Assembly (NCBI GenBank): GCA_019059635.1
Contig: JAGVRJ010000002.1
Span: forward strand, 2,046,001-2,110,000
DNA from: Proales similis
Lineage: Eukaryota > Rotifera > Eurotatoria > Ploima > Proalidae
Length of the DNA stretch: 64,000 nucleotides
Direction: 5' to 3'
The notes below the pieces were generated by a model. The model ran no database searches, was not told the origin of the DNA, and saw only the letters and a list, made by a program, of their open reading frames with translations. The position numbers and the translations under genes were made by a program. Shown piece after piece: positions 44,662 to 64,000 of the stretch. Positions within the stretch are counted from its first letter, which is position 1; every line of letters begins with the position of its first letter.

Positions 44662-47088
44662 ATGAGATTTTTTTTTGTGGTCTTACTCACTCTGGCCGTC
44701 AGAGTAGATTCTCAAGCATGTTGTTTCGACAAAAAGATTCTTGTCGGCCGACTTTCCCTTCATCTTGCTTGTCAGATAATGGACGACTTTTCGGAATTGA
44801 TGAAACCAACCGCAACAGTTCCATCAGCCATTAGTGGATTTTTTGTAACGAAGCAAATGAGCATTTATCCATTACGAGCGCTCATCCTCGATGAATGCCT
44901 GACGCTGGCGGAGTACTTTAATTCATTGCTTAGAAATAATCTAACCACCGATGAACCGGAATTTGGATATCGACCCAGGCTTTGGGTTGATTTAATAAGA
45001 ATGATAAACATTAAAGGAATGGACATAAACCACTCTTACTCAATCATCGGGACTAAAAGCGGTTCCCAAGGTAAACTAAAGATTGAGTATGATTTCTCTC
45101 ACTTTCGGCCATATTCAAACGGGCGAGCCCTCTTGAGTGATTGCGATATGCAAGAATTTGATTCGAAATATTTAGCCAACCTGATAGCATTAACGCTCGA
45201 AGAATTAACATTTAAAACGAATACTCGCTATTACAAACACGTTTGCTCAGTATTGTTTAAGAACGCTGATATCTCACGAATGGAACTGCACGGAATCGGC
45301 TCGTCTTTCCTAATCGACAACAGGCTAACATTCGATTACTTCACCGAGAATGGAACTGTTGTCGAATTGAATGCCTCAATTCAGCATCTAGTCTTGGACT
45401 TGTATCTTGATAAAATCGATAAAGGGCTTCTCAATGATCAAGTTCTGCAGAAAACCGAGATCATAAAAATATACGGAAAACTGGATAGAATAGAGCCGTG
45501 CATATTCGAATCATACAGCCGGGTCTATCTGCACCTGGTCAATCTCAAGGTATTTCTTCACTCGGGCATCAAATGGTGCCCAATCAATCAACCGAATGGC
45601 CGGGAGTTTTTCTTAAAAATTGAAAATCCGAGTCATACTAGCAGGCAAAGTTTAAATAGCATGAAAAACAAATACATGTTTCCGGTAGAAGACATTTGCA
45701 TCTTCAGAAATCTCCTCTCGGACGGGAAGCACTATTTTTTGCTCGAGGAATTCTCAGTAGACGAATGCAGCTGCTCTATTTTCTGGCTCGTGCATAACTA
45801 CAACCAGAATCCAAGCCACGAACTGCTTCATGAGCTTTACTCGGCATATGACATGTTTTCGATCTGCACAGAGAACAAGACATACGATGAGTGGATGGAG
45901 GAGTGCGACTTTGATTCCCGCTTCGCCAAGTGCGACCTAAACCAGAGCACTCGAGCAGAGGCAGAGTGGACAGCGTTCGACACGGCTTTCTTGGTGGCGG
46001 GATTCAAGTACGCCTTCGCTGTGGTTCTTCTTCCGATCGTGTGTGTGATTGGCCTGGTGACCAGTTGCCTGCAGATCACAGTGCTGCGCAAGATGATCGC
46101 CAAGCTTGCTGAGAAGCCGCACGACGACACGAGCAAGCGCTCCCGGCTGATGTACTCCTACCTGCTGCAGCATGCAGTGGGCTCGGCGGCCGTCTGCGCC
46201 CTGTTCGCGTTCAAGCCGCTCACCGAGTGCGTTATGTTCGGCGGCATATTCTGCTCGCCTGTCTACACCTCGTGGCACACTCGGCTGTTCGAGGCCATCG
46301 GAGTGAACATGCTGGGCACAGCCCTCAAGCTTCACACTACTACAACCGCCCTGCTGTTCTCGTTGGCTCGTCTGGCCATAAATGTGAAGAACAAGAAGCG
46401 ACCCTGGATTCGCATCTTCTCCAAGATGCGACCAGCCTATGTGTCACTCGCCTGCTTCCTTGTTTCTCTGTTATTGAGCAGTGTCAAGCTTTTCACCTCA
46501 AACGATTACAGTGTATTGAGCTGGAAAGGTGACATCTTCATATCTTTCAAGATTCCCAGCTTCTCTACTTTTCAGATCTACTATTCAAACTTTATTACTT
46601 CTGAAGCGTTCTATTATCTGAACCTTTTTCTCGAAATCATACTTGATCTATTTATTCCTCTTCTGACTGTTCTTTTTGACCTTGTTTTACTCAAAATAAT
46701 GCGTCAGCAGAATGCCAACAGGTACAAAATGAGCAAGCAATTGCAGACCAAGAGCGAAGAGAACGAGAAGCAGTTCACCAAGATGATCATATTGAATGGT
46801 GTGTTCAACTTCATTTTCAGGATTCCAGTTTTGACCTCCAACATTCTTGAATTTATTGTTTTCCGAGAACATACTTTTGCTTTTTTTCACTTTTTTTTTT
46901 GCCAGTTTGATGACTACACTCTTTTCTCATTTTGTCCTTCACTAATGACCCTTTCATATTTTTTTCTTCAAACGGGCTACATTATCGATTTTTTCCTGCT
47001 TATTAAATTTAATAATGATTTCCGAACCCTTAATAGACACATTTTCCAAATTCTTTTTGTTGAAAAATTCAAACCTTTCACTTATTGA
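44662..47088 (+). CDS. orphan 7TM receptor, array copy 1
   Basis: One exon, 808 residues. Signal peptide about 1–17 (MRFFFVVLLTLAVRVDS). The ectodomain, ~380 residues, has paired Cys and LRR-like stretches such as LVLDLYLDKIDKGLLNDQ and IYGKLDRIEPCIFESYSRVY. From residue 398 the shared core begins (MFSICTENKTYDEWMEECDF, AKCDLNQSTRAEAEWTAF). Membrane segments lie at about 440–465, 490–510, 525–560, 590–615, 645–680, 708–735 and 760–785. The core is GC-rich while the ends are A/T-rich. Residues ~245–400 are almost identical to copy 2, and the C-terminal part after the core resembles copies 3 and 5. Rhodopsin-class-like topology, but no DRY or NPxxY motif is recognisable, so coupling is unknown. 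Confidence 0.85.
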   Translation: MRFFFVVLLTLAVRVDSQACCFDKKILVGRLSLHLACQIMDDFSELMKPTATVPSAISGFFVTKQMSIYPLRALILDECLTLAEYFNSLLRNNLTTDEPEFGYRPRLWVDLIRMINIKGMDINHSYSIIGTKSGSQGKLKIEYDFSHFRPYSNGRALLSDCDMQEFDSKYLANLIALTLEELTFKTNTRYYKHVCSVLFKNADISRMELHGIGSSFLIDNRLTFDYFTENGTVVELNASIQHLVLDLYLDKIDKGLLNDQVLQKTEIIKIYGKLDRIEPCIFESYSRVYLHLVNLKVFLHSGIKWCPINQPNGREFFLKIENPSHTSRQSLNSMKNKYMFPVEDICIFRNLLSDGKHYFLLEEFSVDECSCSIFWLVHNYNQNPSHELLHELYSAYDMFSICTENKTYDEWMEECDFDSRFAKCDLNQSTRAEAEWTAFDTAFLVAGFKYAFAVVLLPIVCVIGLVTSCLQITVLRKMIAKLAEKPHDDTSKRSRLMYSYLLQHAVGSAAVCALFAFKPLTECVMFGGIFCSPVYTSWHTRLFEAIGVNMLGTALKLHTTTTALLFSLARLAINVKNKKRPWIRIFSKMRPAYVSLACFLVSLLLSSVKLFTSNDYSVLSWKGDIFISFKIPSFSTFQIYYSNFITSEAFYYLNLFLEIILDLFIPLLTVLFDLVLLKIMRQQNANRYKMSKQLQTKSEENEKQFTKMIILNGVFNFIFRIPVLTSNILEFIVFREHTFAFFHFFFCQFDDYTLFSFCPSLMTLSYFFLQTGYIIDFFLLIKFNNDFRTLNRHIFQILFVEKFKPFTY
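45853..46511 (+). repeat. homogenised GC-rich core repeat, array copy 1
   Basis: About 660 bp from the ATG of MFSICTENK to SVKLFTSNDYS. It recurs nearly unchanged at 49,025–49,683, 52,060–52,718, 55,613–56,271, 58,577–59,235 and from 63,583 on. It covers the cysteine module, membrane segments 1–4 and their loops, and is visibly richer in G+C than the flanking coding DNA. Confidence 0.85.
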
Positions 47089-47845
47089 AATTCTTTCATC
47101 TCTTATCTTCATGCTCGGTTTTCTTCATATTCGGAAATTTGTTTGGCTCAGCTGATAACTTAGATAAATCAAAAGACCTCAAACCGCAATGTTTCTTTCT
47201 TTTTAGCAGAAAAGCTTTCTATTCTATCAGGCTCTTATTTTCAACCAATTTCGTCATTTAAAAGAAAAAGTAAAAAAAATCCTAAAAAAAATTCTTCGCG
47301 CTTTATACAATATCCAGTGTACTTTTCGTGTCAAATCCAAGCAAAGTTAAGGTAAAGGCGCCGATCGATTTCAATGCGACCACCAGAAATCTGTTTTTAA
47401 AAAAGAAGAATTCTGTGGAAATTGACATAAACAAAAGAGAGAACTGGAGCCATCTCAAATTGCAGCGAACGATCAAGACTGCTTGCTGTCCAGATTTTCC
47501 AAGCGCCAATTGAGAGCATTAAGATGTGAACGTCTCAGGTTTCGATGAATAAGATTGAAGAAGGACGTGGAAAAAACACAAAGGCGGAAGATATCTTGTA
47601 GATCAGTTGAATCATTGATTTCTTAACGCAACAAATATTGTCTTGAGATTTTGCAAAAACCGATTTCAATTTCTTTCTGAGAAAAAAGCGCTGAAAAATT
47701 CAATAAGCAGGAGCAGGGTGAGAAAAAGGATGTTTTTGGATAGTTTTGACTGTTTAAGATTCAAATATTCACAGAAGAGGAAAAAATAAAAAAGGCCTTG
47801 AACAAACAGAACAGGGAAAGAACAAGAGAAGTGGACCGGATAAAA
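47089..47845. other. 757-nt spacer between array copies 1 and 2
   Basis: The left half (about 47,205–47,340) resembles the spacer after copy 2 (about 50,505–50,655): AGAAAGCTTTCTATT-like words, then a TTATACAAT word followed by a TGT-rich stretch. The right half (from about 47,538) carries the conserved 5' block seen before copies 1 and 5. The duplicated unit therefore included flanking DNA on both sides. The frame of copy 2 is open 48 nt upstream of its ATG but has no earlier ATG. Confidence 0.5.
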
Positions 47846-50284
47846 ATGAAAGGCCTGATATTAATTTTTCTTGCTATAATTGTCGGAAGAAAATCCGAAA
47901 CGTGCAGTTTTGACTTGGAGCCAGCACCAAAGGAAAAATCATTAGTTTATCTTTCTTGTAGGATAGAGAGCAGCTTCGAGGAAATAATGAAACCGTCTTC
48001 AACCAAGCCTTCCAAGTTTGCTTATCCCTTGACTGCGAAGAATATGTATTTTTACCTTGATCAGCCGCAAATCCTGGACAATAATTTGCTGATCGAAAAA
48101 TATTTCCAACTATTAATAGAAAATGGTCTAATTAAGACAGAATACGATTTTAGAATGGGCCCAATAATAACAATTGATTTTATAAGTTTCACAAACATTA
48201 TAGGAATGGACATAGACCACTCCTGTACAGACTTGGGTCGATCTGGTTATCAGTCAAGACTAAGAATTAATTACGATTTCTCTCACTTTCGGCCATTTTC
48301 AAACGGACGGGCACTTATAAATGATTGCGACATTAAAGGCATTGAAACGAATCAAACATCACTCGTACTAGATCAGTTATTATTCGGGGTAAGCACCCGC
48401 TATTACAAAAACTTTTGCACGATATTTTTCAAAAATGCGATCGTGAAAACAATCGAGTTGCATGGAATCAGCTCGTCATTACTTGGCGATAACAGACTAA
48501 CGTTTGACTACTTAACAAAGAACGGAACTATTTTTACTTTGAACGCCTCGATAACCACCCTAGTGTTGGACTTGTATCTTGATAAAATCGATAAAGGGCT
48601 TCTCAATGATCAAGTTCTGCAGAAAACCGAGATCATAAAAATATACGGAAAACTGGATAGAATAGAGCCGTGCATATTCGAATCATACAGCCGGGTCTAT
48701 CTGCACCTGGTCAATCTCAAGGTATTTCTTCACTCGGGCATCAGATGGTGCCCAATCAATCAACCGAATGGCCGGGAGTTTTTCTTAAAAATTGAAAATC
48801 CGAGTCATACTAGCAGGCAAAGTTTAAATAGCATGAAAAACAAATACATGTTTCCGGTAGAAGACATTTGCATCTTCAGAAATCTCCTCTCGGACGGGAA
48901 GCACTATTTTTTGCTCGAGGAATTCTCAGTAGACGAATGCAGCTGCTCTATTTTCTGGCTCGTGCATAACTACAACCAGAATCCAAGCCACCAACTGCTT
49001 CATGAGCTTTACTCGGCATATGACATGTTTTCGATCTGCACAGAGAACAAGACATACGACGAGTGGATGGAAGAGTGCGACTTTGACAACCGCTTCGCCA
49101 AGTGCGACCTAAACCAGAGCACTCGAGCAGAGGCGGAGTGGACAGCGTTCGACACAGCTTTCTTGGTGGCGGGATTCAAGTATGCCTTCGCTGTGGTTCT
49201 TCTTCCGATCGTGTGTGTGATTGGGCTGGTGACCAGCTGCCTGCAGATCACAGTGCTGCGCAAGATGATCGCCAAGCTTGCTGAGAAGCCGCACGACGAC
49301 ACGAGCAAGCGCTCCCGGCTGATGTACTCTTACCTGCTGCAGCATGCAGTGGGCTCGGCGGCCGTCTGCGCCCTGTTCGCGTTCAAGCCGCTCACCGAGT
49401 GCGTTAGCTATGCTGGTATTTACTGCTCGCCTGTCTACATCTCGTGGCACACTCGGCTGTTCGAGGCCATCGGCCTAAATCTGCTTGGCACAGCTCTTAA
49501 GCTTCACACTACTTCAACCGCCCTGCTGTTCTCGTTGGCTCGTCTGGCCATCAATGTGAAGAACAAGAAGCGGCGCTCGATTCGCATCTTCTCCAAGATG
49601 CAGCCAGCCTATGTGTCACTCGTCTGCTTCCTTTTTTCTTTGTTATTGAGCAGTGTCAAGCTGTTCACATCGAATGATTACAGCGCATTCAGCTGGACAG
49701 GGGACATTTTCATATCTTTCAAGATTCCGAGTCTGACCACTTTTTTTATCTATTATTCCAACTTCGTTGGTTCTGATGCCTTCTACTTTCTGAACATCAG
49801 CCTTGAAGTCTTACTTGACTTATTTATTCCTTTAATGAATGTTGTTATCGACATTATTTTACTCAGAGTGATGCATGAACAAAACGCCAACCGGTCGAAT
49901 TTGTCCCAACAGCTTCAGGCACTGAGCGAGAAAAAGGAAAAGCAATTTACAAAAATGATCATCTTGAATGGAATCTCTAATTTTATTTTCAGGATTCCAG
50001 TTTTGATTTCCAACATTCTTGAATTTATTGTATTGACCAATTTTCATTTTTCCCTGGGTGGCCTCTTTATCTTTAGCTTTCAATTCTGCCAATTCGACGA
50101 TTATCCGTTCCTCTCGTTATGTCCAGCGATCCTTTCGATCTCAAATCTGTTTCTCCAACTCGGTTACATAGTCGATTTCGTTCTGTTGGTGCGATTCAAC
50201 AATTCTTTTCAGACAACTCTCAAGGAGCAAGCATTTATTCGACGTTTTATTCGAAAATCCAAAAATGACGATTCTTTAACTTGA
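47846..50284 (+). CDS. orphan 7TM receptor, array copy 2
   Basis: One exon, 812 residues from the ATG that begins a good signal peptide (MKGLILIFLAIIVGRKSETC). Ectodomain residues 1–240 diverge from copy 1. From 48,566 to about 49,060 the DNA is nearly identical to copy 1 at 45,394–45,890; I saw only two or three differences. The core begins at residue 394 and carries FDNRFAKCDLNQS instead of FDSRFAKCDLNQS. After the core the C-terminal third departs from the others: ITTFFIYY-like A/T-rich sequence, a distinct last loop (NFHFSLGGLFIFSFQFC) and tail. Seven membrane segments remain. Intact frame, no disabling change. Confidence 0.85.
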   Translation: MKGLILIFLAIIVGRKSETCSFDLEPAPKEKSLVYLSCRIESSFEEIMKPSSTKPSKFAYPLTAKNMYFYLDQPQILDNNLLIEKYFQLLIENGLIKTEYDFRMGPIITIDFISFTNIIGMDIDHSCTDLGRSGYQSRLRINYDFSHFRPFSNGRALINDCDIKGIETNQTSLVLDQLLFGVSTRYYKNFCTIFFKNAIVKTIELHGISSSLLGDNRLTFDYLTKNGTIFTLNASITTLVLDLYLDKIDKGLLNDQVLQKTEIIKIYGKLDRIEPCIFESYSRVYLHLVNLKVFLHSGIRWCPINQPNGREFFLKIENPSHTSRQSLNSMKNKYMFPVEDICIFRNLLSDGKHYFLLEEFSVDECSCSIFWLVHNYNQNPSHQLLHELYSAYDMFSICTENKTYDEWMEECDFDNRFAKCDLNQSTRAEAEWTAFDTAFLVAGFKYAFAVVLLPIVCVIGLVTSCLQITVLRKMIAKLAEKPHDDTSKRSRLMYSYLLQHAVGSAAVCALFAFKPLTECVSYAGIYCSPVYISWHTRLFEAIGLNLLGTALKLHTTSTALLFSLARLAINVKNKKRRSIRIFSKMQPAYVSLVCFLFSLLLSSVKLFTSNDYSAFSWTGDIFISFKIPSLTTFFIYYSNFVGSDAFYFLNISLEVLLDLFIPLMNVVIDIILLRVMHEQNANRSNLSQQLQALSEKKEKQFTKMIILNGISNFIFRIPVLISNILEFIVLTNFHFSLGGLFIFSFQFCQFDDYPFLSLCPAILSISNLFLQLGYIVDFVLLVRFNNSFQTTLKEQAFIRRFIRKSKNDDSLT
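49025..49683 (+). repeat. homogenised core repeat, array copy 2
   Basis: Second copy of the ~660-bp core. Local differences include GACAACCGC for GATTCCCGC and a SYAGIYCSP variant of the FGGIFCSP loop. Confidence 0.85.
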
Positions 50285-50865
50285 AAGGAGTGATCTCTAA
50301 GAAATTCAGATTTAATGTTCTTGTCTTCTTGGTTTTTTTGTTTCAAGGAAATAGGTTTTTACACGAAACTTTTTTTTGCTTAATGGCTAGGAAAAAGAAT
50401 ATTTTAGACAAAATGGAGCATGGAAACATTTTGTTGATTTTAATTTTATTGCCTCAAGCATGCAAACCTAAGCGTCTAAAGATTTTTGTCAAATTTTTCT
50501 ATCTGAGAAAGCTTTCTATTTTATGAGGTTTTTGCCTCAGACCAATGCAATTTGTTATTTAAAAACGCCCGATTCAATAGAAAATATCTTTTGCGTGCGG
50601 CACGACTCTTGGGGCTCTTATACAATTGTCAGTATGCTTTTGTGTTAAATTGACGCAACGTGTCGGCTAATGCGTTTCAATTGCTTCTAGAAAAGGATGT
50701 GAGAAATTTTTGTGGGAAACAAAGGATACCAGCAGACTGGCGAACATAAATCCACAGAGAGATGATTATCAAATGAAACATTGCATTTGTGAATCAGTTT
50801 TATGACGAAAGAATAAAAAAAATTTTAAAAATAAAATCATTTAGTCCAAAGTGGTCAAGTAAAAT
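50285..50865. other. 581-nt spacer between array copies 2 and 3
   Basis: A/T-rich. Its left part resembles the spacer after copy 1 (see there). A plus frame continuing past the copy 2 stop (50,281–50,526) is probably chance. No TATA box identified with confidence. Confidence 0.45.
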
Positions 50866-53286
50866 ATGAGATGTATCATTCTTATTGTGTTGGCTGTGAT
50901 TACCGAGTCGAAATCCGAAACATGCAGCTTCGACAAAAAGTCGGTATCAATGCAGAGACCGAACATTTACCTGTCCTGCAGAATAGGCAACCATTTTACC
51001 GAGATAATGGAACAGTCTTCGACGAGGCCTTCAAAATATGGCTTTTTCTACACCGTGCAGGAAATGTATTTTTACGTTGGTCGAGCTCTAATCCTTGACG
51101 AAAGTCTGTCCCTCAAAGCCTATTTGGAATCGTTGATAATGAATAATCTAACAATTGATATTTTCCATTTCGGAGATTTGCCTTGGCTGTCGCTTAAATC
51201 GATAAGTTTGATAAACATAAAGGGAATAGACATAGATCACTCTTACTCAATCATCGGCAATCTAAGCGGATCCCAAAATCAGCTTACAATTGAGTTCGAT
51301 TACTCCCATTTTCTGCCGTTCTCAAATAATCGAAAACTTTTGGGTCATTGCGAGAAGGAATCCTTCGGAACGAGCTACTTGTCCGAACTCGTTTCGCTCG
51401 AATTACGAAGATTAGTATTTAAAACCGGAAATCGCTATTACAGGAATGTTTGCTCGATATTCTTTAAGAATGCAGCCATCTTCCAATTGGAACTAAAAGG
51501 AATCGGCTCATCATTCCTGGGCGACAACAGCCTCACGTTTGACTACTTCACCGAGAATGGAACTAATGCTGGATTGAACGCCTCCATTCGGAACCTTGTC
51601 TTGAACTTGTACCTAGATAGGATTGATTCAGGAATTCTGAATGATCAAGTCCTTGAGAATATGCAAAGCATTCAAATATACGGAAAGCTGAATAAGATAG
51701 AGCCATGCTTATTCCAATTTTACAATCGGATTTATCTGCACATTGTTAATCTCAAAGAATTTATTCACTCAGGTATAAAATGGTGCTTGGATAGAGACTC
51801 GAAGAATGAGGTTTTTTTCATTAACATCAATAAAATAGGAACGGAAAAAATAAATAAACGCTTGTCAGAGAGTGAAAACACATACACGTTTCCGATAGAA
51901 GATATCTGCCTTTACAGGTCTCTCTTTTCTGATGGAAGGCATTATTTTTTATTTGAAACTTTTCAAAATGAGAAGTGCAGCTGTTCTATTTTCTGGCTCG
52001 TACACAATTACAAGAATGGTAGCGACGAACTAAGCGGAGAGCTTTACACGGCAAATGACATGTTTTCGATCTGCACAGAGAACAAGACATACGACGAGTG
52101 GATGGAGGAGTGCGACTTTGATTCCCGCTTCGCCAAGTGCGACCTAAACCAGAGCACTCGAGCAGAGGCAGAGTGGACAGCGTTCGACACGGCTTTCTTG
52201 GTGGCGGGATTCAAGTACGCCTTCGCTGTGGTTCTTCTTCCGATCGTGTGTGTGATTGGCCTGGTGACCAGCTGCCTGTCGATCGCAGTGCTGCGCAAGA
52301 TGATCGCCAAGCTTGCAGAGAAGCGCTACGACGACACGAGCAAGCGCTCTCGGCTGATGTACTCCTACCTGCTGCAGCATGCAGTGGGCTCGGCGGCCGT
52401 CTGCGCCCTGTTCACTTTCAAGCCACTCACCGATTGTGTGAGCTTCGGCGGCATTTTCTGCTCGCCTGTCTACACATCTTGGCACACTCGGCTGTTCGAG
52501 GCCATCGGGCTTAATCTGCTTGGCACCGCTCTTAAGCTTCACACAACTACAACCGCCCTGTTGTTCTCATTGGCTCGTCTGGCCATCAATGTGAAGAACA
52601 AGAAGCGGCGCTCGATCCGCGTCTTCTCCAAGATGCGGCCAGCATATGTGTCACTCGCCTGCTTCCTTGTTTCCCTGTTATTGAGCAGTGTCAAGCTTTT
52701 CACCTCAAACGATTACAGCGTACTGAGCTGGACAGGTGACATTTTCATATCTTTCAAGATTCCCAGTTTCTCTACTTTTCAGATCTACTATTCTAACTTT
52801 ATTGCCTCAGAAGCGTTCTATTATCTGAACCTTGGCCTCGAAATCATCCTTGACCTATTAATTCCTTTGCTGACTGTTCTGATTGACCTTGTTTTACTCA
52901 AAGTAATGCGTCAGCAGAATGTCAATAGGTCCAAAATGAGCAAGCAATTGCAGACCAAGAGTGAAGAGAACGAGAAGCAGTTCACCAAGATGATCATATT
53001 CAATGGTGTGTTCAACTTCATTTTCAGGATTCCGGTTCTGACCTCCAACATTCTTGAATTCATTGTTTTCAACCAGTTTGGGTTCTACTTTTATAACTTT
53101 CAATCTTGCCAATTCGATGATTATCCTCTTCTCTCGTTGTGTCCGTCAATTCTTTCGATATCAAACATGCTTCTTAAACTCGGATATTTAATCGACTTTT
53201 GCTTACTTGTCAAGTTTAACAAAGATTTCCGGACCATTTTGCTAGAATATTTGCAAGTTATTTTTCCCACAAGAAAGCAATCTTGA
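50866..53286 (+). CDS. orphan 7TM receptor, array copy 3
   Basis: One exon, 806 residues. Signal peptide about 1–18 (MRCIILIVLAVITESKS), followed by ETCSFDKK as in copy 5. DNA of 51,489–51,766 is almost identical to copy 4 at 55,043–55,325. Then about 110 nt differ. Identity with copy 4 resumes at 51,886–52,060 and runs on into the shared core (from residue 399). The core carries LSIAVLRKMIAKLAEKRYDD and a FTFKPLTDC variant. The segment after the core (SWTGDIFISFKIPSFSTFQ onward) matches copies 1 and 5, and the last loop FNQFGFYFYNFQSCQFDDYP matches copy 5. It is thus a clear mosaic of its neighbours while remaining an intact 7TM frame. Confidence 0.85.
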   Translation: MRCIILIVLAVITESKSETCSFDKKSVSMQRPNIYLSCRIGNHFTEIMEQSSTRPSKYGFFYTVQEMYFYVGRALILDESLSLKAYLESLIMNNLTIDIFHFGDLPWLSLKSISLINIKGIDIDHSYSIIGNLSGSQNQLTIEFDYSHFLPFSNNRKLLGHCEKESFGTSYLSELVSLELRRLVFKTGNRYYRNVCSIFFKNAAIFQLELKGIGSSFLGDNSLTFDYFTENGTNAGLNASIRNLVLNLYLDRIDSGILNDQVLENMQSIQIYGKLNKIEPCLFQFYNRIYLHIVNLKEFIHSGIKWCLDRDSKNEVFFININKIGTEKINKRLSESENTYTFPIEDICLYRSLFSDGRHYFLFETFQNEKCSCSIFWLVHNYKNGSDELSGELYTANDMFSICTENKTYDEWMEECDFDSRFAKCDLNQSTRAEAEWTAFDTAFLVAGFKYAFAVVLLPIVCVIGLVTSCLSIAVLRKMIAKLAEKRYDDTSKRSRLMYSYLLQHAVGSAAVCALFTFKPLTDCVSFGGIFCSPVYTSWHTRLFEAIGLNLLGTALKLHTTTTALLFSLARLAINVKNKKRRSIRVFSKMRPAYVSLACFLVSLLLSSVKLFTSNDYSVLSWTGDIFISFKIPSFSTFQIYYSNFIASEAFYYLNLGLEIILDLLIPLLTVLIDLVLLKVMRQQNVNRSKMSKQLQTKSEENEKQFTKMIIFNGVFNFIFRIPVLTSNILEFIVFNQFGFYFYNFQSCQFDDYPLLSLCPSILSISNMLLKLGYLIDFCLLVKFNKDFRTILLEYLQVIFPTRKQS
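52060..52718 (+). repeat. homogenised core repeat, array copy 3
   Basis: Third copy. From about 52,310 onward it shares AAGCGCTACGACG and other synonymous choices with copy 4 only. Confidence 0.85.
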
Positions 53287-54427: not shown

Positions 54428-56836
54428 ATGAACGCATTTGTAGTTTTCCTTTTCACTCTGGTGAGCAAAGTCAGATTGGAGGCCTGTAGCTTTGAAAAGG
54501 TGCCGGAAATGAGTGCCAACAAACTCTACCTATCTTGCCGCTTAAAAAACGATTTTTCGGATATAATGGCGACCGATTCCACGGCACAATCTAATTATGG
54601 CGGCTTCTTCGCCGTAAGGGAAATGCATATCTATCCATATCAGCAGTTGTTACTGGATGGGCGTCTAAAGCTTGAAAATTACTTTGAAATGATCATCAAA
54701 AGAAATCTTTCAAACGCAGATTATCAATTTGGAGACGAACCAACATTGCGGATAAGATTAATCAGTTTGACAAACATAAAAGGAATGGACATCGACCACT
54801 CGTACACACATTTGGGTCAGGCCGGATCCCAAGATCAACTGACGATTGAGTACGACTACTCCCACTTTGTGCCATTTTCGAACGGACTGAGTCTTGTGAA
54901 CAAGTGCGACATGCGCGACTTTGAATCAGACTATTTGCTCAATCTGACATCGCTTGAGCTTTATGAATTGGTGTTCCAAACAAGCACTCGCTACTACAGA
55001 CACGTATGCTCGGTATTCTTTAGAAACGCTCAGATTCAAACACTGGAACTAAAAGGAATCGGCTCATCATTCCTGGGCGACAACAGCCTCACGTTTGACT
55101 ACTTCACCGAGAATGGAACTAATGCTGGATTGAACGCCTCCATTCGGAACCTTGTCTTGAACTTGTACCTAGATAGGATTGATTCAGGAATTCTGAATGA
55201 TCAAGTCCTTGAGAATATGCAAAGCATTCAAATATACGGAAAGCTGAATAAGATAGAGCCATGCTTATTCCAATTTTACAATCGGATTTATCTGCACATT
55301 GCTAATCTCAAAGAATTTATTCACTCCGCCATAGAATGGTGCGTAAATAAGCGTTTGACGAATGACACTTTTTACATAAGAATCGGCCATTTTGTTTCGG
55401 AGCAAAAAACAAAATTATCTTACATTCAAAACCAATACACGTTTCCGATAGAAGATATCTGCCTTTACAGGTCTCTCTTTTCTGATGGAAGGCATTATTT
55501 TTTATTTGAAACTTTTCAAAATGAGAAGTGCAGCTGTTCTATTTTCTGGCTCGTACACAATTACAAGAATGGTAGCGACGAACTAAGCGAAGAGCTTTAC
55601 ACGGCAAATGACATGTTTTCGATCTGCACAGAGAACAAGACATACGACGAGTGGATGGAGGAGTGCGACTTTGATTCCCGCTTCGCCAAGTGCGACCTAA
55701 ACCAGAGCACTCGAGCAGAGGCAGAGTGGACGGCATTCGACACAGCTTTCTTGGTGGCAGGACTCAAGTACGCACTCGCTGTGGTTCTTCTTCCGATCGT
55801 GTGTGTGATTGGGCTGGTGACCAGCTGTTTGTCAATCGCAGTGCTGCGCAAGATGATCGCCAAGCTTGCAGAGAAGCGCTACGACGACACGAGCAAGCGC
55901 TCTCGGCTGATGTACTCCTACCTGCTGCAGCATGCAGTGGGCTCGGCGGCCGTCTGCGCCCTGTTCGCGTTCAAGCCGCTCACCGAGTGCGTGATGTTCG
56001 GCGGCATTTACTGCTCGCCTGTCTACACATCTTGGCACACTCGGCTGTTCGAGGCCATCGGGCTTAATCTGCTTGGCACCGCTCTTAAGCTTCACACAAC
56101 TACAACCGCCCTGTTGTTCTCATTGGCTCGTCTGGCCATCAATGTGAAGAACAAGAAGCGGCGCTCGATCCGCGTCTTCTCCAAGATGCGGCCAGCATAT
56201 GTGTCACTCGCCTGCTTCCTTGTTTCCCTGTTATTGAGCAGTGTCAAGCTTTTCACCTCAAACGACTACAGCGCTATCAGTTTCGATTATGATGCTTTAA
56301 AAGCCTTTAAAGTACCTTGGTTTTCCTCTTTTTTTACATTTAATGCTAATTTGTATAGTTTCTCTCCTTTATACCATTTAAATCTTTGTCTTGAAATCTT
56401 CCTCGATTTTTTCGTTCCTTTGCTGACCGTTCTGATTGATTTTCTACTTCTTTCTCTGATGCGTCAGCAGAATGCCAATCGATCCAAAATGAGCAAGCAA
56501 TTACAGACCAAGAGCGAAGAGAACGAGAAGCAGTTTACCAAATTGATTGTATTGAATGGAGCATTCAATTTCATATTCCGTACTCCTGTCTTAGCCTCTA
56601 ACGTAAGTGAGTTTGTTGTATCCAAGGACTTTGGCGTCTTTTCGTTTCATCATCTCCCGTTGTGTGTATTCGAAGACTATCCCCTTTTTTCGATTTGTCC
56701 ATCTTTTTTATCTATTTCAAGTATATTTCTTCAACTAGGTTACATAGTTGATTTCTTTCTTTTGGCGAAATTCAATGATACTTTTAGGGCTTTTATGTTT
56801 GATTTTTCATTTTTAAATATCATTTTTAGAAGATAG
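54428..56836 (+). CDS. orphan 7TM receptor, array copy 4
   Basis: One exon, 802 residues. Signal peptide about 1–19 (MNAFVVFLFTLVSKVRLEAC). DNA of about 54,790–55,215 nearly equals copy 5 at 57,750–58,175, with about five differences seen. Part of this (from 55,043) also equals copy 3. The core begins at residue 396 with an alanine-leucine variant in the first membrane segment (LVAGLKYALAVVLLPIVCVI). After the core it departs from the others (ISFDYDALKAFKVPWFSSFF) for ~60 residues, returns to the shared MRQQNANRSKMSKQLQTKSE, then has a private C-terminus (SKDFGVFSFHHLPLCVFEDY). Intact, seven membrane segments. Confidence 0.85.
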   Translation: MNAFVVFLFTLVSKVRLEACSFEKVPEMSANKLYLSCRLKNDFSDIMATDSTAQSNYGGFFAVREMHIYPYQQLLLDGRLKLENYFEMIIKRNLSNADYQFGDEPTLRIRLISLTNIKGMDIDHSYTHLGQAGSQDQLTIEYDYSHFVPFSNGLSLVNKCDMRDFESDYLLNLTSLELYELVFQTSTRYYRHVCSVFFRNAQIQTLELKGIGSSFLGDNSLTFDYFTENGTNAGLNASIRNLVLNLYLDRIDSGILNDQVLENMQSIQIYGKLNKIEPCLFQFYNRIYLHIANLKEFIHSAIEWCVNKRLTNDTFYIRIGHFVSEQKTKLSYIQNQYTFPIEDICLYRSLFSDGRHYFLFETFQNEKCSCSIFWLVHNYKNGSDELSEELYTANDMFSICTENKTYDEWMEECDFDSRFAKCDLNQSTRAEAEWTAFDTAFLVAGLKYALAVVLLPIVCVIGLVTSCLSIAVLRKMIAKLAEKRYDDTSKRSRLMYSYLLQHAVGSAAVCALFAFKPLTECVMFGGIYCSPVYTSWHTRLFEAIGLNLLGTALKLHTTTTALLFSLARLAINVKNKKRRSIRVFSKMRPAYVSLACFLVSLLLSSVKLFTSNDYSAISFDYDALKAFKVPWFSSFFTFNANLYSFSPLYHLNLCLEIFLDFFVPLLTVLIDFLLLSLMRQQNANRSKMSKQLQTKSEENEKQFTKLIVLNGAFNFIFRTPVLASNVSEFVVSKDFGVFSFHHLPLCVFEDYPLFSICPSFLSISSIFLQLGYIVDFFLLAKFNDTFRAFMFDFSFLNIIFRR
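55613..56271 (+). repeat. homogenised core repeat, array copy 4
   Basis: Fourth copy, closest to copy 3 in its second half. Its first half carries the LKYALAV variant shared with copy 6. Confidence 0.85.
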
Positions 56837-57382: not shown

Positions 57383-59824
57383 ATGAATTGGTTCATATTA
57401 ATTGTGCTTTCTTTTATTGATGAAACAAAATGCGAAACGTGTAGTTTTGACAAGAAGCAAGTATCAATGCAAAGACCAATGTTGTACTTGTCATGTAGGA
57501 TAGAAAGCAGCTTTACAGAATTGTTGAGAAATTATTCAACCACTCGATCAAAATATGGTCGTTTTTTTATAGTGCCGCAAATTTATTTTTACCTTGCTAG
57601 GCCTAATGTTGTAGACAAAAATCTACTTCTAGAGGACTATTTAGAATCATTAATTAGAGACAATTTGACAACTATAGAATTCGATTTCAAACGAGGTCCA
57701 ACCCTTTCGATACAGTTGATAAGTTTTACGAACATAAAAGGAATAGACATCGATCATTCGTACACACATTTGGGTCGGGCCGGATCCCAAGATCAACTGA
57801 CGATTGAGTACGACTACTCCCACTTTGTGCCATTTTCGAACGGACTGAGTCTTGTGAACAAGTGCGACATGCGCGACTTTGAATCAGACTATTTGCTCAA
57901 TCTGGCATCGCTTGAGCTTAGTGAATTGGTGTTCCAAACAAGCACTCGCTACTACAGACACGTATGCTCGGTATTCTTTAGAAACGCTCAGATTCAAACA
58001 CTGGAACTAAAAGGAATCGGCTCATCATTCCTGGGCGACAACAGCCTCACGTTTGACTACTTCACCGAGAATGGAACCAATGCTGGATTGAACGCCTCCA
58101 TTCGGAACCTTGTCTTGAACTTGTACCTAGATAGGATTGATTCAGGAATTCTGAATGATCAAGTCCTTGAGAACATCCTAAGCGTTGAAATATACGGAAA
58201 GCTGAATAAGATAGAGCCGTGCATTTTCGAGTCGTACAATCGAATTTTTCTTAGGTTGGTTAATCTCCAAACTTTTTTCCACTCTGGAATAGAATGGTGT
58301 AAAAGCAACAAACTGAGCAGACTAGATTTTTTTTTCAAAATTCAAAATCATCATTTAAATGGAAAGAAAGAATTATCAAATATAAAGATGCATTACACGT
58401 TTCCGATTGAAGACATTTGCGTTTTCAAAAATCTCCTCTCGCATGAAAAGCACTATTTCATCTTCAGAGATAACACGAAGTCAAAAGAGTGCAGTTGCTC
58501 TATATTCTTACTCGTGCGCAATTACATTCAGAATCCAAGCCAAGAATTGATAAATGAACTAAATTTCGAAACAAACATGTTTTCGATCTGCACAGAGAAC
58601 AAGACATACGATGAGTGGATGGAGGAGTGCGACTTTGATTCCCGCTTCGCCAAGTGCGACCTAAACCAGAGCACTCGAGCAGAGGCAGAGTGGACAGCGT
58701 TCGACACGGCTTTCTTGGTGGCAGGACTCAAGTACGCAGTCGCTGTGGTTCTTCTTCCGATGATGTGTGTGATTGGGCTGGTGACCAGCTGCCTGTCGGT
58801 TGCAGTGCTGCGCAAGATGATCGCCAAGCTTGCTGAGAAGCGGCATGACGACACGAGCAAGCGCTCCCGGCTGATGTACTCTTACCTGCTGCAGCATGCA
58901 GTGGGCTCGGCGGCCGTCTGCGCCCTGTTCGCGTTCAAGCCGCTCACCGATTGCGTTATGTTCGGCGGCATCTTCTGCTCGCCTGTCTACACCTCGTGGC
59001 ATACTCGGCTGTTCGAGGCCATCGGCCTAAATCTGCTTGGCACAGCTCTTAAGCTTCACACTACTACAACCGCCCTGCTGTTCTCGTTGGCTCGTCTGAC
59101 CATCAATGTGAAGAACAAGAAGCGACGCTCGATTCGCATCTTCTCCAAGATGCGGCCAGTCCATGTGTCTCTCGGATGCTTCCTTGTTTCTCTGTTATTG
59201 AGCAGTGTCAAGCTTTTCACCTCAAACGATTACAGTGTATTGAGCTGGAAAGGTGACATCTTCATATCTTTCAAGATTCCCACTTTCTCTACTTTTCAGA
59301 TTTACTATTCAAACTTTATTACTTCTGAAGCGTTCTATTATCTTAATCTTAGCCTCGAACTCACCCTCGACCTTGTCATTCCTTTGCTGACTGTGCTCAT
59401 TGACCTTGTTTTACTCAAAGTTATGCGTCAGCAGAATGCCAACAGGTCCAAAATGAGCAAGCAATTGCAGACCAAGAGCGAAGAGAACGAGAAGCAGTTC
59501 ACCAAGATGATCATATTTAATGGTGTGTTCAACTTCATTTTCAGGATTCCAGTTTTGACCTCCAACATTCTTGAATTCATTGTTTTCAACCAGTTTGGTT
59601 TCTACTTTTATAACTTTCAGTCTTGTCAATTCGATGATTATCCTCTTCTCTCGTTGTGTCCGTCAATTCTTTCGATATCAAATATGCTTCTCCAACTAGG
59701 CTTCATAATTGACTTCAGCCTGTTGCTCCGTTTTAATAAAGATTTCCGGGCTATTCTGAAAGAAAATTCTATCGTCCGCTTCTTAATTAGCAAACGAAGA
59801 GACGTTGAGTCTCCAACTAAATGA
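57383..59824 (+). CDS. orphan 7TM receptor, array copy 5
   Basis: One exon, 813 residues. Signal peptide about 1–18 (MNWFILIVLSFIDETKC). The first ~120 residues are private, residues ~123–265 equal copy 4, residues ~265–395 are private again (RLDFFFKIQNHHLNGKKEL), the core begins at residue 399 and the C-terminal third matches copies 1 and 3. In the core, AVAVVLLPMMCVIGLVTSCL is a local variant. The tail ends RRDVESPTK. The stop is only 92 nt from the stop of the opposite-strand TGF-beta receptor gene, and its AATAAA at 59,906–59,911 lies within 20 nt of that gene's stop. Intact 7TM frame. Confidence 0.85.
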   Translation: MNWFILIVLSFIDETKCETCSFDKKQVSMQRPMLYLSCRIESSFTELLRNYSTTRSKYGRFFIVPQIYFYLARPNVVDKNLLLEDYLESLIRDNLTTIEFDFKRGPTLSIQLISFTNIKGIDIDHSYTHLGRAGSQDQLTIEYDYSHFVPFSNGLSLVNKCDMRDFESDYLLNLASLELSELVFQTSTRYYRHVCSVFFRNAQIQTLELKGIGSSFLGDNSLTFDYFTENGTNAGLNASIRNLVLNLYLDRIDSGILNDQVLENILSVEIYGKLNKIEPCIFESYNRIFLRLVNLQTFFHSGIEWCKSNKLSRLDFFFKIQNHHLNGKKELSNIKMHYTFPIEDICVFKNLLSHEKHYFIFRDNTKSKECSCSIFLLVRNYIQNPSQELINELNFETNMFSICTENKTYDEWMEECDFDSRFAKCDLNQSTRAEAEWTAFDTAFLVAGLKYAVAVVLLPMMCVIGLVTSCLSVAVLRKMIAKLAEKRHDDTSKRSRLMYSYLLQHAVGSAAVCALFAFKPLTDCVMFGGIFCSPVYTSWHTRLFEAIGLNLLGTALKLHTTTTALLFSLARLTINVKNKKRRSIRIFSKMRPVHVSLGCFLVSLLLSSVKLFTSNDYSVLSWKGDIFISFKIPTFSTFQIYYSNFITSEAFYYLNLSLELTLDLVIPLLTVLIDLVLLKVMRQQNANRSKMSKQLQTKSEENEKQFTKMIIFNGVFNFIFRIPVLTSNILEFIVFNQFGFYFYNFQSCQFDDYPLLSLCPSILSISNMLLQLGFIIDFSLLLRFNKDFRAILKENSIVRFLISKRRDVESPTK
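58577..59235 (+). repeat. homogenised core repeat, array copy 5
   Basis: Fifth copy, with private changes giving LLPMMCVIG and LTINVKNKK, and the ATTCGCATC codon choice shared with copies 1 and 2. Confidence 0.85.
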
Positions 59825-59905
59825 ATTGTAGCCTAAACTGGTCAAATTGCTTTTTCGTTTAATATCATCTCAATATCCATTTTTCCCCTACTTAAACTTT
59901 TCATT

Positions 59906-59921
59906 AATAAAATCATTTATT
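59906..59921. terminator. back-to-back poly(A) signals of two convergent genes
   Basis: A plus-strand AATAAA at 59,906–59,911 (7TM copy 5) and a minus-strand AATAAA at 59,916–59,921 (TGF-beta receptor) sit side by side. The minus-strand one overlaps that gene's own TAA stop. Mature 3' ends of the two transcripts must overlap. Confidence 0.7.
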
Positions 59922-61489
59922 TCGATTCTAAAATGCGTTGGATTTTCTTTTTTATATTTAATGAAGTCAGCCTTGCCTGTGGTGAGTTCTGCCAGCATTC
60001 ACACGCTATTTCGATCAGCTTCGAGCAAGCCTAGAAGGAATGCATGCTCATTTTATGAAAGGAATCTTCCTATTCGTTGTCAGCTTACCTCTTGCTCATA
60101 GAGCTTGGCTCGGAAGTCGGGGCGGATGTTCTGGGAAATGACGATATTTCGCATCAGAGCAATAGAGGGATCGCCAGGTGCCAGTTGGCTGAAGGGTGGC
60201 TGATGCGGCCCGATTAATTCGTGTTGTTCAACTCTAAAGCGCGACATCATCTCCCAAAGAACGTATGAGAATGAGTAGATATCTGCTCTCTTCAAGTGCT
60301 CGGCCGACTTTATGTCAACTGTTTCGCACAAGCATTCTGGCGCCATGTACCGGGCACTTCCTTCCCTGATGCGCTGGTCTTCTTGTTGCTCAATCAGGTC
60401 CAGCCGCTCGTCGTATCGAAGCGCAAGGCCAAAGTCAGCTAGACAACATTCCAGATTGTTTTTGACCAAAATGTTTTTTGTCTTTATGTCGCGATGCACT
60501 ATTGTGGGCTTGTAAAAAGAGCCTCGAATCTCCTGGTGTAGATGGTTGAGGCCGTTTATTGTCGAATAGGCGAATTTTAAAAGAACACACTGGTCGGCTA
60601 TTTCGTTCGATTGAAGGTAATCATAAAGCGAGCCGATTGCATGATACTCCGTGACTAGCAGCATGTTTATTGTGTTTCCTTGTCCTTGAATATCTGAGGC
60701 AATAAAGCGCAGTATGTTCTCATGCTGGAGCATGCCCGACTCGTACATCTGCTTCTCGCGCATCCACGACTGCTCATGCATTGTGAAGAACTTTTTGACC
60801 GCGACCAAGTCGCCTTTCCAATGGGCACGCCACACCATTCCATAGCGTCCACGACCAACTACGCCACGTTCTTGGTCTATTCTAATGTCTTGCGATATTG
60901 TGCGCTGTACAAGCTCGGTCGGGCCGTTGCCACTTGAAACGTCACTCAACACTTCAATCGTGTCCAGCATATTGTAATTGCCTTCCTCCTCGTCCTCCTT
61001 CTCCTTCCAAATCAGACTTGTTGTCTGGTCGCGTTCAGCAAAGAGTCTTCTTTTCTTCTGATTGCCTCTAATTATTAATAACCTTGAAGTGGTTGAATGG
61101 AGAAGAATTTTATGAATCTTTTTTGAATCGAACATTTACCAACAAGCCAGTCCAATCAAGAGCAGGAGTGTAGAAATTGTCAGCAGCCAGACCAAGCTGG
61201 TGTTTGAGACTGTTCTCAGGCCAGATGTCGCGTATCTGCTATCTTCTTCGCTCAAATTACAAAAGTCATGGTCTCTACAGCAAAATACGGAAGTTGCGCG
61301 CGTGGCTCTGTTGCACAGCCTGGTCTGGGATGAATGATCGAGACAGCCGAGACAACCTTGAGAGCAGTTGCTCATGTCCACTACTCGAAAGCAAGCGTGT
61401 TGAGCTCGACACCACTCGCTGGGACCGCAATTGGTACAAGCGCAGAGCAGCTTTGTTTCATCGAAATTGCGCCCCATTGGACTCGTCAT
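59917..61489 (-). CDS. TGF-beta superfamily type I receptor (BMP/activin type, ALK1/2-like)
   Basis: Exons on the minus strand: 61140–61489 (5' end uncertain), 60089–61082 and 59917–60030. The ectodomain is a three-finger Cys pattern (LLCACTNCGPSEWC, then SVFCCRDHDFCN), followed by one membrane segment (LVWLLTISTLLLLIGLACW). A GS-box-like SSGNGPTELVQRTISQDI precedes the kinase: glycine loop GRGRYGMVW, VAVKKF lysine, catalytic HRDIKTKNILV, DFGLA, GSARYMAPECL and a final ECWQNSPQARLTSLNIKKK. FIASD before the L45 loop and EYHAIGSLYDYLQ point to the ACVR1/Saxophone branch. It is a serine/threonine kinase that phosphorylates Smads after type II receptor activation. The first in-frame ATG (61489) gives no signal peptide, so an upstream exon is missing from this model. 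Confidence 0.87.
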
Positions 61490-62382
61490 GATTGACAATG
61501 TTCTTTATGATGAATATAGCATCTCCTTTCTGATCGTTGTGAGAGAGGTTTCCCTCCGTCCTACTTAAGCATTGACGTTTATCTAATCTTATCTCTGTAG
61601 GTGTGAACATGCGCAATCCAATTAGCCTGGCTGACCGGTCCGGTGCGCAGACCAAAACATCAACAACAATTCAATTTGGCAATCAATTTTACGGTTATGC
61701 GAACCGAATACCGCTCCGAGCTGTGTTGCGCAACCAATCAATTCCGACTCTGAACCCTGGGCTTTCTGCTGGTCAAATTGAATCAAATTAACCGAAAAAT
61801 GTTCTAATTCATCTCATCTCTTGACTTAAAGGGGCCGGTGATGTGCGTCGGTCAACTCGATGTTCAGTCTAGTGGCCATCTCGACCAGTTGCACAGATAA
61901 AGACTGCTCTTGAAGTTCAAGAGTTGGATCATCAAATCAACTCGTAACTAAACGGAAGAGAATATTAACTCTGTTCATCCAGGACTCTGCTTGGGCTATT
62001 CGCTAGCACTATGTGGAAGGAAAGGAATTTATTTGATTTGATTAAGACTCGTAACGAATCATATTCAGCCAAATCGGAGAGGATATGCCCATTCTAGGCC
62101 CCTGATATATAGATGAAATTTAATACTTTCATCTATACTATGTGAAATTTAATATTTGAGTATTTCTCATCAATTAAAGGCCGTGGGACGGATCTATCAA
62201 AGGAAAAAATTAACACCTTGGCCTTGGAACTCGGTAGAAACCTCTGCGTGACTGTCCAATCTACTCTTTTCTGTTCACACCCAAAATAATCGATAAGTGC
62301 CTGGTGAAGGAAATATAAAATAAAAACTAAAGGAGCGGTCTCAAATTAAACAAAGAAACCACTGAATATTATTGAATCAAAA
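61490..62382. other. 893-nt region between the receptor-kinase gene and array copy 6
   Basis: Must hold the missing 5' exon(s) of the minus-strand receptor kinase and the promoter of copy 6. A minus frame 61,458–61,655 is open but in another frame from the receptor. Downstream, about 61,800–62,380, is A/T-rich and unremarkable. Confidence 0.4.
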
Positions 62383-64000
62383 ATGCGTATTTTTTTGCTT
62401 CTTATAACAATCGCTTCGAAAGCGCAGTGTGAGATATGCAGCTTTGAGCGAAAGTCATTTGCTATCCGCGCCTCTCTTTATGTAACTTGTCGGGTAGAAA
62501 GCAATTTTTCTGAAATGCTCATGCCAGGCTCTACCAGACCATATGAAAGCTCATCAAATGTTCTATTAGAAGACCTTGTCATCTACCCGAACCATCCACT
62601 TGTTTTGGACCAGAGTCTTGACACAATCGGGTACTTGAAGTATCTAAATGACGAAAATCTAACCGCATCGGACGAGTACTACTCTTTGACTTCAACTTAT
62701 CCTGTTCAAAGCTTGGCAAGCATTCAATTCAGCAACATAAATGGGATTGACACGAATTATTCTTACTGCCAAATCTATTCTGACATGGAGCTTCAAGATA
62801 ACATGCGCATAGAATTCACCTTCTCTCACTTCAAGCCAATCTACAACGGCCGACCGCTGCTAAATCGATGCGAATTAGACGCTGCTATGGTTGAATCCAT
62901 TAAAGAGCTTGTTCCATTGCGAGCTGCTCAGGTGGTGTTTGATACCAGCACTCGCTATTATCTCAACACTTGTTCGATCATTTTGAACAACGCCAAAATA
63001 GACTACCTTGAGCTCGCCGGCATAAGCAGTTCCTTCCTTGGTGACAACAGTCTAGGATTCGACAGCTTGCTAGAAGATGGACACGTTTATCCCTTAAATG
63101 TCTCAATAAATAATCTAGTACTGCAATTGTACACTGATTTGCTGGATAGCCGCCTTTTGAACGAGGTCCTATTCAAATCAACTGAGAAAATAGATATAAA
63201 TGGAAGGATAGACAGGTCGGAGCCGTGCTTGATGGACAAATACAAGCACATTGTTCTGAGAATTGTGAACTTGAGAACATTTCTGGGCTCTGATATAATC
63301 TGGTGTGACAATCAAAATCAAACAACTGCCTCACACTATATCACAATAGCATGGGAGCAGATGGGATTATCGCTTATGAATTTGATAAATTATTTGAATC
63401 AATTTGCATTTTTGGATGAAGATTTGTGCCTATTCAGAAAGTATCCGATTGATGATAGACACTTTTTTTTGTTCGCCACTAAACCTGTTCCCAACTGTAC
63501 TTGTTCTATTTTCTGGCTCGTGCACAATCATCGGCTAAACCTCAGCGTAGAAATAATAAATGAGGTGTATCCACGAACAAACATGTTTTCCATCTGCACA
63601 GAGAACAAGACATACGACGAGTGGATGGAGGAGTGCGACTTTGATTCCCGCTTCGCCAAGTGCGACTTAAACCAGAGCACTCGATCAGAGACAGAGTGGA
63701 CGGCATTCGAAACCACTACCTTGGTGGCAGGACTCAAATACGCACTCGCTGTGGTTCTTCTTCCGATCGTGTGTGTGATTGGGCTGGTGACCAGCTGCCT
63801 GCAGATCACAGTGCTGCGCAAGATGATCGCCAAGCTTGCTGAGAAGCCGCACGACGACACGAGCAAGCGCTCTCGGCTGATGTACTCCTACCTGCTGCAG
63901 CATGCAGTTGGATCGGCTGCCGTCTGCGCCCTGTTCGCGTTCAAGCCGCTCACCGATTGTGTGATGTTCGGCGGCATCTTCTGCTCGCCTGTCTACACCT
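62383..64000 (+). CDS. orphan 7TM receptor, array copy 6 (cut by window end)
   Basis: Open without a stop from ATG 62383 to the window end (539 codons). Signal peptide about 1–16 (MRIFLLLITIASKAQC), then EICSFERKS. The ectodomain is the most diverged of the array but keeps the landmarks: STRYYLNTCSIILNNAK, GISSSFLGDNSLGFDSLLED, EPCLMDKYKHIVLRIVNL and FLDEDLCLFRKYPIDDRHFF. That last stretch resembles the divergent gene at 34,950. At residue 401 (63,583) it switches abruptly into the near-identical GC-rich core (MFSICTENKTYDEWMEECDF), with a few private changes (QSTRSETEWTAFETTTLVAG). The rest lies outside the window. Confidence 0.83.
   Translation, partial: MRIFLLLITIASKAQCEICSFERKSFAIRASLYVTCRVESNFSEMLMPGSTRPYESSSNVLLEDLVIYPNHPLVLDQSLDTIGYLKYLNDENLTASDEYYSLTSTYPVQSLASIQFSNINGIDTNYSYCQIYSDMELQDNMRIEFTFSHFKPIYNGRPLLNRCELDAAMVESIKELVPLRAAQVVFDTSTRYYLNTCSIILNNAKIDYLELAGISSSFLGDNSLGFDSLLEDGHVYPLNVSINNLVLQLYTDLLDSRLLNEVLFKSTEKIDINGRIDRSEPCLMDKYKHIVLRIVNLRTFLGSDIIWCDNQNQTTASHYITIAWEQMGLSLMNLINYLNQFAFLDEDLCLFRKYPIDDRHFFLFATKPVPNCTCSIFWLVHNHRLNLSVEIINEVYPRTNMFSICTENKTYDEWMEECDFDSRFAKCDLNQSTRSETEWTAFETTTLVAGLKYALAVVLLPIVCVIGLVTSCLQITVLRKMIAKLAEKPHDDTSKRSRLMYSYLLQHAVGSAAVCALFAFKPLTDCVMFGGIFCSPVYT
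63583..64000 (+). repeat. homogenised core repeat, array copy 6 (partial)
   Basis: Sixth copy, truncated by the window end. It follows an ectodomain that has diverged strongly from the others. Confidence 0.8.

Follow-up and report, generated by a model that had tools for sequence, protein, structure and literature searches.

A receptor array with a shared membrane core

How do neighboring receptor genes come to share one membrane core when the parts on either side of it have drifted far apart? The question is raised by a 64,000-nt stretch of the genome of the marine monogonont rotifer Proales similis (C2:2046001-2110000, hereafter the window), which carries intronless seven-transmembrane (7TM) receptor genes with large ectodomains in a tandem array. 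An earlier note on this stretch had described a recombining receptor family that varies its outward part and shares its membrane core, a picture that our analysis supports. Silent sites are homogenized in one region of the genes, mosaic tracts are found, trees of different gene segments conflict, and an overlapping block is homogenized in four arrays. Our explanation for the homogenization of the core within arrays is gene conversion that recurs and is confined to certain regions, not selection that froze the core, and we assign this explanation a probability of about 0.83.

Positions follow the numbering of the window, continued past 64000 into the contig extension. The genome searched comprises 32,716,893 bases in 15 contigs; the published assembly is described as PacBio-based, with 32,722,929 bp in 15 scaffolds, an N50 of 2,428,301 and an L50 of 6 (PMC11954553). 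According to the list of open frames, the window holds five complete plus-strand receptor genes of 802 to 813 codons, arranged head to tail, and the start of a sixth, of which the first two thirds lie inside the window. The head-to-tail array of open frames is thus borne out, with five rather than six complete genes in the window. On the contig, the whole C2 array runs to 82121 and contains 10 intact genes (A1 to A10), one broken copy and one C-terminal fragment. The statement that all frames are intact therefore holds for the window and fails beyond it (Table 1).

Silent divergence falls in one region of the C2 genes

The 10 C2 genes were compared in all 45 pairs by scoring the proportions of silent (pS) and amino acid-changing (pN) differences in 60-codon windows. 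Mean pS lies between 0.64 and 0.80 in the 13 windows preceding the core, at 0.21 to 0.33 in the five core windows and at 0.68 to 0.83 in the six windows that follow. Transitional windows have values of 0.43 and 0.47. By region, the mean silent difference equals 0.72 in the ectodomain, 0.26 across transmembrane segments 1 to 3 and intracellular loop 2 (TM1-TM3/ICL2), and 0.77 at the C terminus, while pN falls from 0.28-0.48 to 0.04-0.08 in the core. Because silent sites are homogenized, selection at the protein level alone cannot be the cause.

At the nucleotide level, the 15 pairs among genes 1 to 6 show 91.9 to 96.7% identity in the core (mean, 0.934) versus 48 to 74% in the ectodomain (mean, 0.610), which is what the "almost identical" of the earlier note amounts to. 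A common core of about 660 bp with four membrane segments had also been proposed; a common core exists, yet it measures about 540 bp, comprises the Cys hinge, TM1-TM3 and ICL2, and ends there without TM4, where divergence among the C2 genes resumes. The ratio of nonsynonymous to synonymous divergence (dN/dS) is alike in the two parts, with window values of 0.14 to 0.28 in the core and, where computable, 0.13 to 0.29 in the ectodomain.

An overlapping block is homogenized in four arrays

The receptors form at least four tandem arrays (C2, C15, C3 and C8) on four contigs. Beyond C2, the reading took in five genes of C15, two of C3 and two of C8, one of the C8 genes being truncated in the stretch read. 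Silent-site homogenization in one region, and within clusters only, is seen in all four arrays: pS equals 0.025 in the core versus 0.650 in the ectodomain of C15 and 0.054 versus 0.462 in C3, and in the C8 pair it amounts to 0.024 to 0.027 in four core windows versus 0.55 to 0.95 in eight ectodomain windows. In a common alignment read in 20-residue windows, pS across A3 residues 441 to 590 is at most 0.40 in C2 and at most 0.12 in C15, C3 and C8. In A3 residue numbers, the dip begins at about 381 in C15, about 411 in C2 and C8, and about 431 in C3. It ends with a rise at 591 to 620, the start of TM4, in C2, C15 and C8, whereas in C3 values of 0.2 to 0.3 persist to about residue 621. A further dip lies at TM5-ICL3-TM6 in C15 and C8 and around TM6 in C3, but none is seen in C2 taken as a whole. 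The pS profiles of the arrays have rank correlations of 0.39 to 0.70, calculated over overlapping windows.

Comparison between groups (409 pairs from different arrays or single loci) gives a core pS of 0.698 and a core amino acid identity of 0.306, whereas core protein identity within arrays is 0.906 to 0.985. Each array therefore has its own shared core. Family-wide, protein identity is 0.306 in the core versus 0.212 in the ectodomain. Where core amino acids are identical, codons differ at frequencies of 0.205, 0.017 and 0.016 in C2, C15 and C3, whereas random sampling from this codon usage would give 0.522, 0.332 and 0.548, respectively. The GC content at third codon positions (GC3) of the core exceeds that of the ectodomain in 17/17 genes of C2, C15 and C3 (0.778 versus 0.476). 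It equals 0.651 versus 0.525 in 14 other members read, in which part of the rise is thus present as well; in the C8 pair the rise is unclear (core windows, 0.51 to 0.74). One further locus, L031 (C11:389254-391545), has a core that is 78 to 79% identical to the C15 array cores and an ectodomain that is only 35 to 36% identical; its core pS of 0.43 to 0.46 may point to exchange in the more distant past or to a common origin.

Segment trees conflict and tracts are mosaic

When the C2 genes were divided into four segments, the approximately unbiased (AU) test rejected every foreign segment tree (12/12; P at most 0.0011). Uniform divergence along the genes with a single tree, the result that the earlier note had named as speaking against its proposal, was thus not obtained, and the divergent, mosaic ectodomains and C termini that it had seen around a homogeneous core are confirmed by the uneven pS and the conflicting trees.

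Of 45 pairs per segment, six in the ectodomain, five after the core and one in the core have runs of exact identity longer than in any of 2,000 permutations, in a test that presumes equal site rates within a segment. The exchanges supported in this way include A1-A2, A3-A4, A4-A5 and A7-A8 in the ectodomain and A1-A5 and A8-A9 after the core. The longest exact run in the A7-A8 ectodomain measures 201 bp; the tracts of the other three ectodomain pairs are listed in Table 1. Between A3 and A4, codons 301 to 360 form an island of difference (pS, 0.36; pN, 0.24) with 80 identical codons before it and 40 after it, possibly a part of the ectodomain that is kept different.

Gene conversion as the proposed mechanism, and its alternatives

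In the mechanism we propose, short non-reciprocal exchanges would copy the block from the hinge through TM1, ICL1, TM2, extracellular loop 1 (ECL1) and TM3 to ICL2 between the genes within each array, and in C15 and C8 TM5-ICL3-TM6 would also be transferred. The ectodomain, ECL2, ECL3 and the C-terminal tail would drift apart, with only patchy exchange between particular pairs. Exchange presumably continues today, core similarity and divergence elsewhere may reinforce one another, and changes that would overwrite the ectodomain may be lost by selection or for want of homology. The continued divergence of the ectodomain could accordingly reflect conversion that limits itself by similarity or selection against overwriting, and the data fit either. 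Diversifying selection on the ligand-facing part is not supported: pN exceeds pS in just 4/540 sixty-codon windows of the ectodomain, dN/dS there resembles that of the core, and 20-codon counts in eight chosen pairs, read in part, gave no clear excess of pN in the ectodomain.

In codons 201 to 450, A3 is nearest to A4, but after codon 600 it is nearest to A1 and A5, and the broken copy of the array contains a doubled stretch of the kind left by an unequal event. Both would be expected if unequal crossing over inside the core mainly swapped whole 5' and 3' halves of neighbors, with less contribution from conversion tracts. A1 and A10, however, are distant both before and after a core in which they are similar (pS of 0.81, 0.35 and 0.73), which requires two breakpoints, and short two-sided tracts lie inside the ectodomains; we consider crossing over in this role unlikely. 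The low dN/dS of the core and its somewhat greater family-wide conservation compared to the ectodomain would also suit a core held constant by purifying selection on signaling, without any exchange; the earlier note had spoken of a protected signaling part. This account is refuted by a core pS that is low within arrays and high between groups. Moreover, not only the proteins but also the silent sites are homogenized, core amino acids differ by about 70% on average between groups (mean identity, 31%), the segment trees conflict, and ectodomain dN/dS about equals that of the core where computable, which leaves selection alone a highly improbable cause.

Silent sites of the core might instead be constrained in another way, by codon bias, RNA structure or an overlapping antisense gene. 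In favor of this, GC3 reaches 0.90 to 0.95 in two C15 core windows, antisense open frames of 107 to 196 codons overlap some C2 cores, and the codon-aligned antisense register of 5/5 C15 cores has only 0 or 1 stop in 169 codons. Sampling at random from that codon usage, however, gives 2.5 to more than 30 times more codon differences than observed, by which codon bias is rejected as the cause of the low core pS. The antisense register contains one to four stops in 9/10 C2 cores, two in both C3 cores and two in the C8 core read; an antisense gene is thereby rejected for C2, whereas for C15, with its nearly open register, this test does not reject it. A high GC3 would by itself leave few antisense stops. 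As cores of different groups also differ freely at silent sites, such a constraint is very unlikely to be responsible. The divergent ectodomains and the tandem arrangement could further be read as recent duplication followed by very fast ectodomain change. Yet ectodomain pS is at least 0.7 in 32/45 C2 pairs, the spacers are unalignable apart from remnants of genes and, at E values up to 1e-3, two matches of 32 and 39 bp, and the few windows in which pN exceeds pS were given above. The high ectodomain pS and the barely aligning spacers indicate that most C2 genes are old duplicates, and recent duplication can be given almost no credence. Near-identical blocks in tandem genes are, finally, a classic source of assembly or consensus error. 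Against such an artifact stand the distinct ectodomains, C-terminal tails and spacers, the presence of the block in four arrays on four contigs, and the PacBio data described for the published assembly (PMC11954553), so that its probability is practically negligible.

The receptors resemble class A GPCRs

Each protein consists of an N-terminal part of about 430 residues followed by seven predicted helices. The 7TM part is best described as a class-A-like G protein-coupled receptor (GPCR) bundle, judged from its sequence and from models, that departs from canonical class A motifs. At E values up to 0.1, 5/19 members match the Pfam family 7TM_GPCR_Srw (PF10324), among which A4 barely exceeds the cut-off, and a family profile weakly touched TM5-TM6 of rhodopsin in the PDB (E, 0.04). 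A 7TM model predicted from the six window sequences has a pLDDT (predicted local distance difference test) of 63.1 and a pTM (predicted template modeling score) of 0.65. In a Foldseek search with this model, the 50 best of 842 PDB matches (E up to 10) are GPCR structures with a probability of 1.00 and E values of 1.1e-3 to 8.7e-3, none below 1e-3; we take them to be class A wherever the receptor is named. The bundle's fold matches include peptide receptors, LGR4 and a Caenorhabditis elegans LGR. For residues 442 to 738 of a poor whole-protein model (VIA-align), TAS2R ranks first among the matches and Smoothened is also listed. The predicted fold thus does not settle the GPCR class.

The proteins share with 7TM_GPCR_Srw and class A peptide-type receptors the seven predicted helices, an Arg at the end of TM3 (invariant in 23/23 sequences) and an invariant Pro in TM6. 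They differ from them in the N-terminal part, which is of no known family, in the lack of an acidic residue (Asp/Glu) before the Arg in all 23 sequences, and in TM7, where NPxxY is absent from the 23 sequences and F-x-x-x-x-x-[FYL]-[ND] stands instead. A Cys precedes TM3; ECL2 lacks Cys in 20/22 sequences, so the canonical Cys3.25-ECL2 pairing is not found there, and ECL3 has a Cys pair in 22/22 sequences. The earlier description of these proteins as orphans of no recognized family remains valid for the ectodomain, for which none of 19 members matched a Pfam family, and gives way for the 7TM part, which is nearest to class A.

In architecture alone, with a large ectodomain, a Cys hinge and a class-A-like bundle, the receptors recall LGRs. 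Hydrophobic spacing, a C-x-C cap and a likeness to arthropod leucine-rich repeat (LRR) proteins presumably point the same way. However, an LRR ectodomain is unsupported: Pfam LRR families matched 0/19 members at E values up to 10 and hhalign gave 0.2% to a single canonical LRR protein encoded elsewhere in this genome, two tests that weak or irregular repeats could escape; the whole-protein model is of too low quality to decide the matter. Elsewhere in the genome, LRR matches are dense at C1:385000-415000 (G000), and a long LRR frame lies on C7 (1,060 codons read). The gustatory family 7tm_7 (PF08395) had no genome-wide match, although the positive control gave none either, and the array proteins were likewise unmatched. 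A search for the cuticle family PF00379, lacking a positive control, also came up empty. The intron-poor, 32.5-Mb genome of the tomato russet mite (PMC7738191) was considered as the source and rejected, since panB, a gene of that mite, is missing from the matches here, whereas the control was positive in 11/14 genomes. NCBIfam yielded only single-member matches to bacterial families (best E, 4e-4), taken as chance.

Family size and genomic surroundings

The genome contains at least 119 loci of the family that measure 1 kb or more, and 90/119 have another within 10 kb. They derive from four whole-genome searches with different members, whose 242 rows collapse into 122 places, of which 119 reach 1 kb. 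As each search scores fewer than 60 candidates, 119 is a lower bound, and the loci are places, not all established as intact genes. The count depends little on how loci are merged (119 with a gap of 150 bases, 118 with a gap of 0 and 114 with a gap of 500), and 138/242 rows, left after the rest had been dropped by eye as repeats, likewise give 119 loci, 90 of them with a neighbor. The largest group, 48/119 loci, lies on contig C8. Set against published totals of 10,785 genes (PMC8878817) or 14,641 proteins (PMC11954553), the family makes up about 1% of P. similis genes. When gene A3 was run against contigs of prokaryote genomes in a single scan, 37 pattern matches came up and none was confirmed as a relative.

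The broken copy beyond the window carries gene positions ~1012 to 1294 twice consecutively, a doubling such as unequal exchange close to the core's 5' edge would leave. A kinase gene (60080-61135, minus) lies on the opposite strand between genes 5 and 6, with Pfam matches to protein kinase families only; we assume a likeness to a TGF-beta type receptor. It adjoins a cysteine-rich minus-strand frame (61136-61489). Upstream of the array, a 583-codon minus-strand frame (37818-39569) contains a cysteine block and has no Pfam family above the cut-off; by eye, we take the block to resemble the PSI domain of plexins and semaphorins.

Table 1. Receptor genes, homogenized blocks and identical tracts in the window and the contig extension
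Feature	Position	Strand	Remarks
A1	44662..47088	+	808 aa, intronless 7TM receptor, large ectodomain; open frame and family search
A2	47846..50284	+	812 aa; open frame and family search
A3	50866..53286	+	806 aa; open frame; query of first family search
A4	54428..56836	+	802 aa; Pfam 7TM_GPCR_Srw, 22.9 bits versus cut-off of 22.2
A5	57383..59824	+	813 aa; open frame and family search
A6	62383..64000	+	5' part only; full gene 813 aa, stop at 64824
Homogenized block A1 (hinge, TM1-TM3, ICL2)	45856..46395	+	
Homogenized block A2	49028..49567	+	
Homogenized block A3	52063..52602	+	
Homogenized block A4	55616..56155	+	
Homogenized block A5	58580..59119	+	
Homogenized block A6	63586..64000	+	Runs on to 64125, past the window end
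Ectodomain tract A1 = A2 48745-48991	45573..45819	+	247 bp identical
Ectodomain tract A3 = A4 55044-55301	51488..51745	+	258 bp identical
Ectodomain tract A4 = A5 57922-58077	54964..55119	+	156 bp identical
C-terminal fragment of array gene	65357-65686		Contig extension
Broken copy, locus L040	70795-73545		Contig extension
Single divergent family member	34950..37328	-	792 aa; outside array; 27% identity, E 2.3e-52 in family search

Relation to known systems and possible function

Regional gene conversion is already known for cell-adhesion clusters and other families. In fugu protocadherins, raised GC3 in the converted region was interpreted as gene conversion, and the clustered protocadherins of fugu and zebrafish, as described in PMC1852091, resemble the present arrays as tandem paralogues with one homogenized region of raised GC3 and a divergent, presumed recognition part. 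They differ in being cadherins, which are unrelated to these GPCRs, and in their homogenized part, a 3' region that includes the C-terminal ectodomains, in contrast to TM1-TM3 and ICL2 here. The process is thus of a known kind; what seems new is the family itself, the recurrence of the TM1-ICL2 block and the setting. Among the titles and abstract openings listed from open-licence papers, none dealt with this family or with gene conversion among rotifer GPCRs. Kim et al. reportedly listed 401 GPCR genes in P. similis in 2021, a set that probably overlaps this receptor family.

For the use of the receptors, we lean towards chemosensation, on the basis of family size, clustering and divergence. 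The receptors would then read variable external ligands through one shared signaling output per array. A membrane and cytoplasmic part held in common, with an exterior that varies, suggests that each cluster joins many ligands to a single output. Recognition of self or of mates, or signaling by endogenous peptides, is a possible but less probable function, which would agree with the peptide receptors among the best fold matches and with an ectodomain large enough to bind proteins. At least 119 clustered, divergent loci among 10,785 genes or 14,641 proteins look, in our judgment, more like chemoreceptors than hormone receptors.

The overlapping block in four unlinked clusters provides natural replicates for asking whether the limits of conversion are set by homology, hotspots or selection. 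The array genes are a candidate chemoreceptor set of the rotifer, and natural chimeras with a similar core and different ectodomains should be useful for finding ligands. More tentatively, the family may represent a lineage-specific, undescribed GPCR class that serves as the rotifer's main repertoire for external sensing and follows a modular rule, in which conversion would keep one common TM1-ICL2 cassette per cluster (in part also TM5-ICL3-TM6) while the ectodomains diversify and reassort, so that many ligands would feed into one output.

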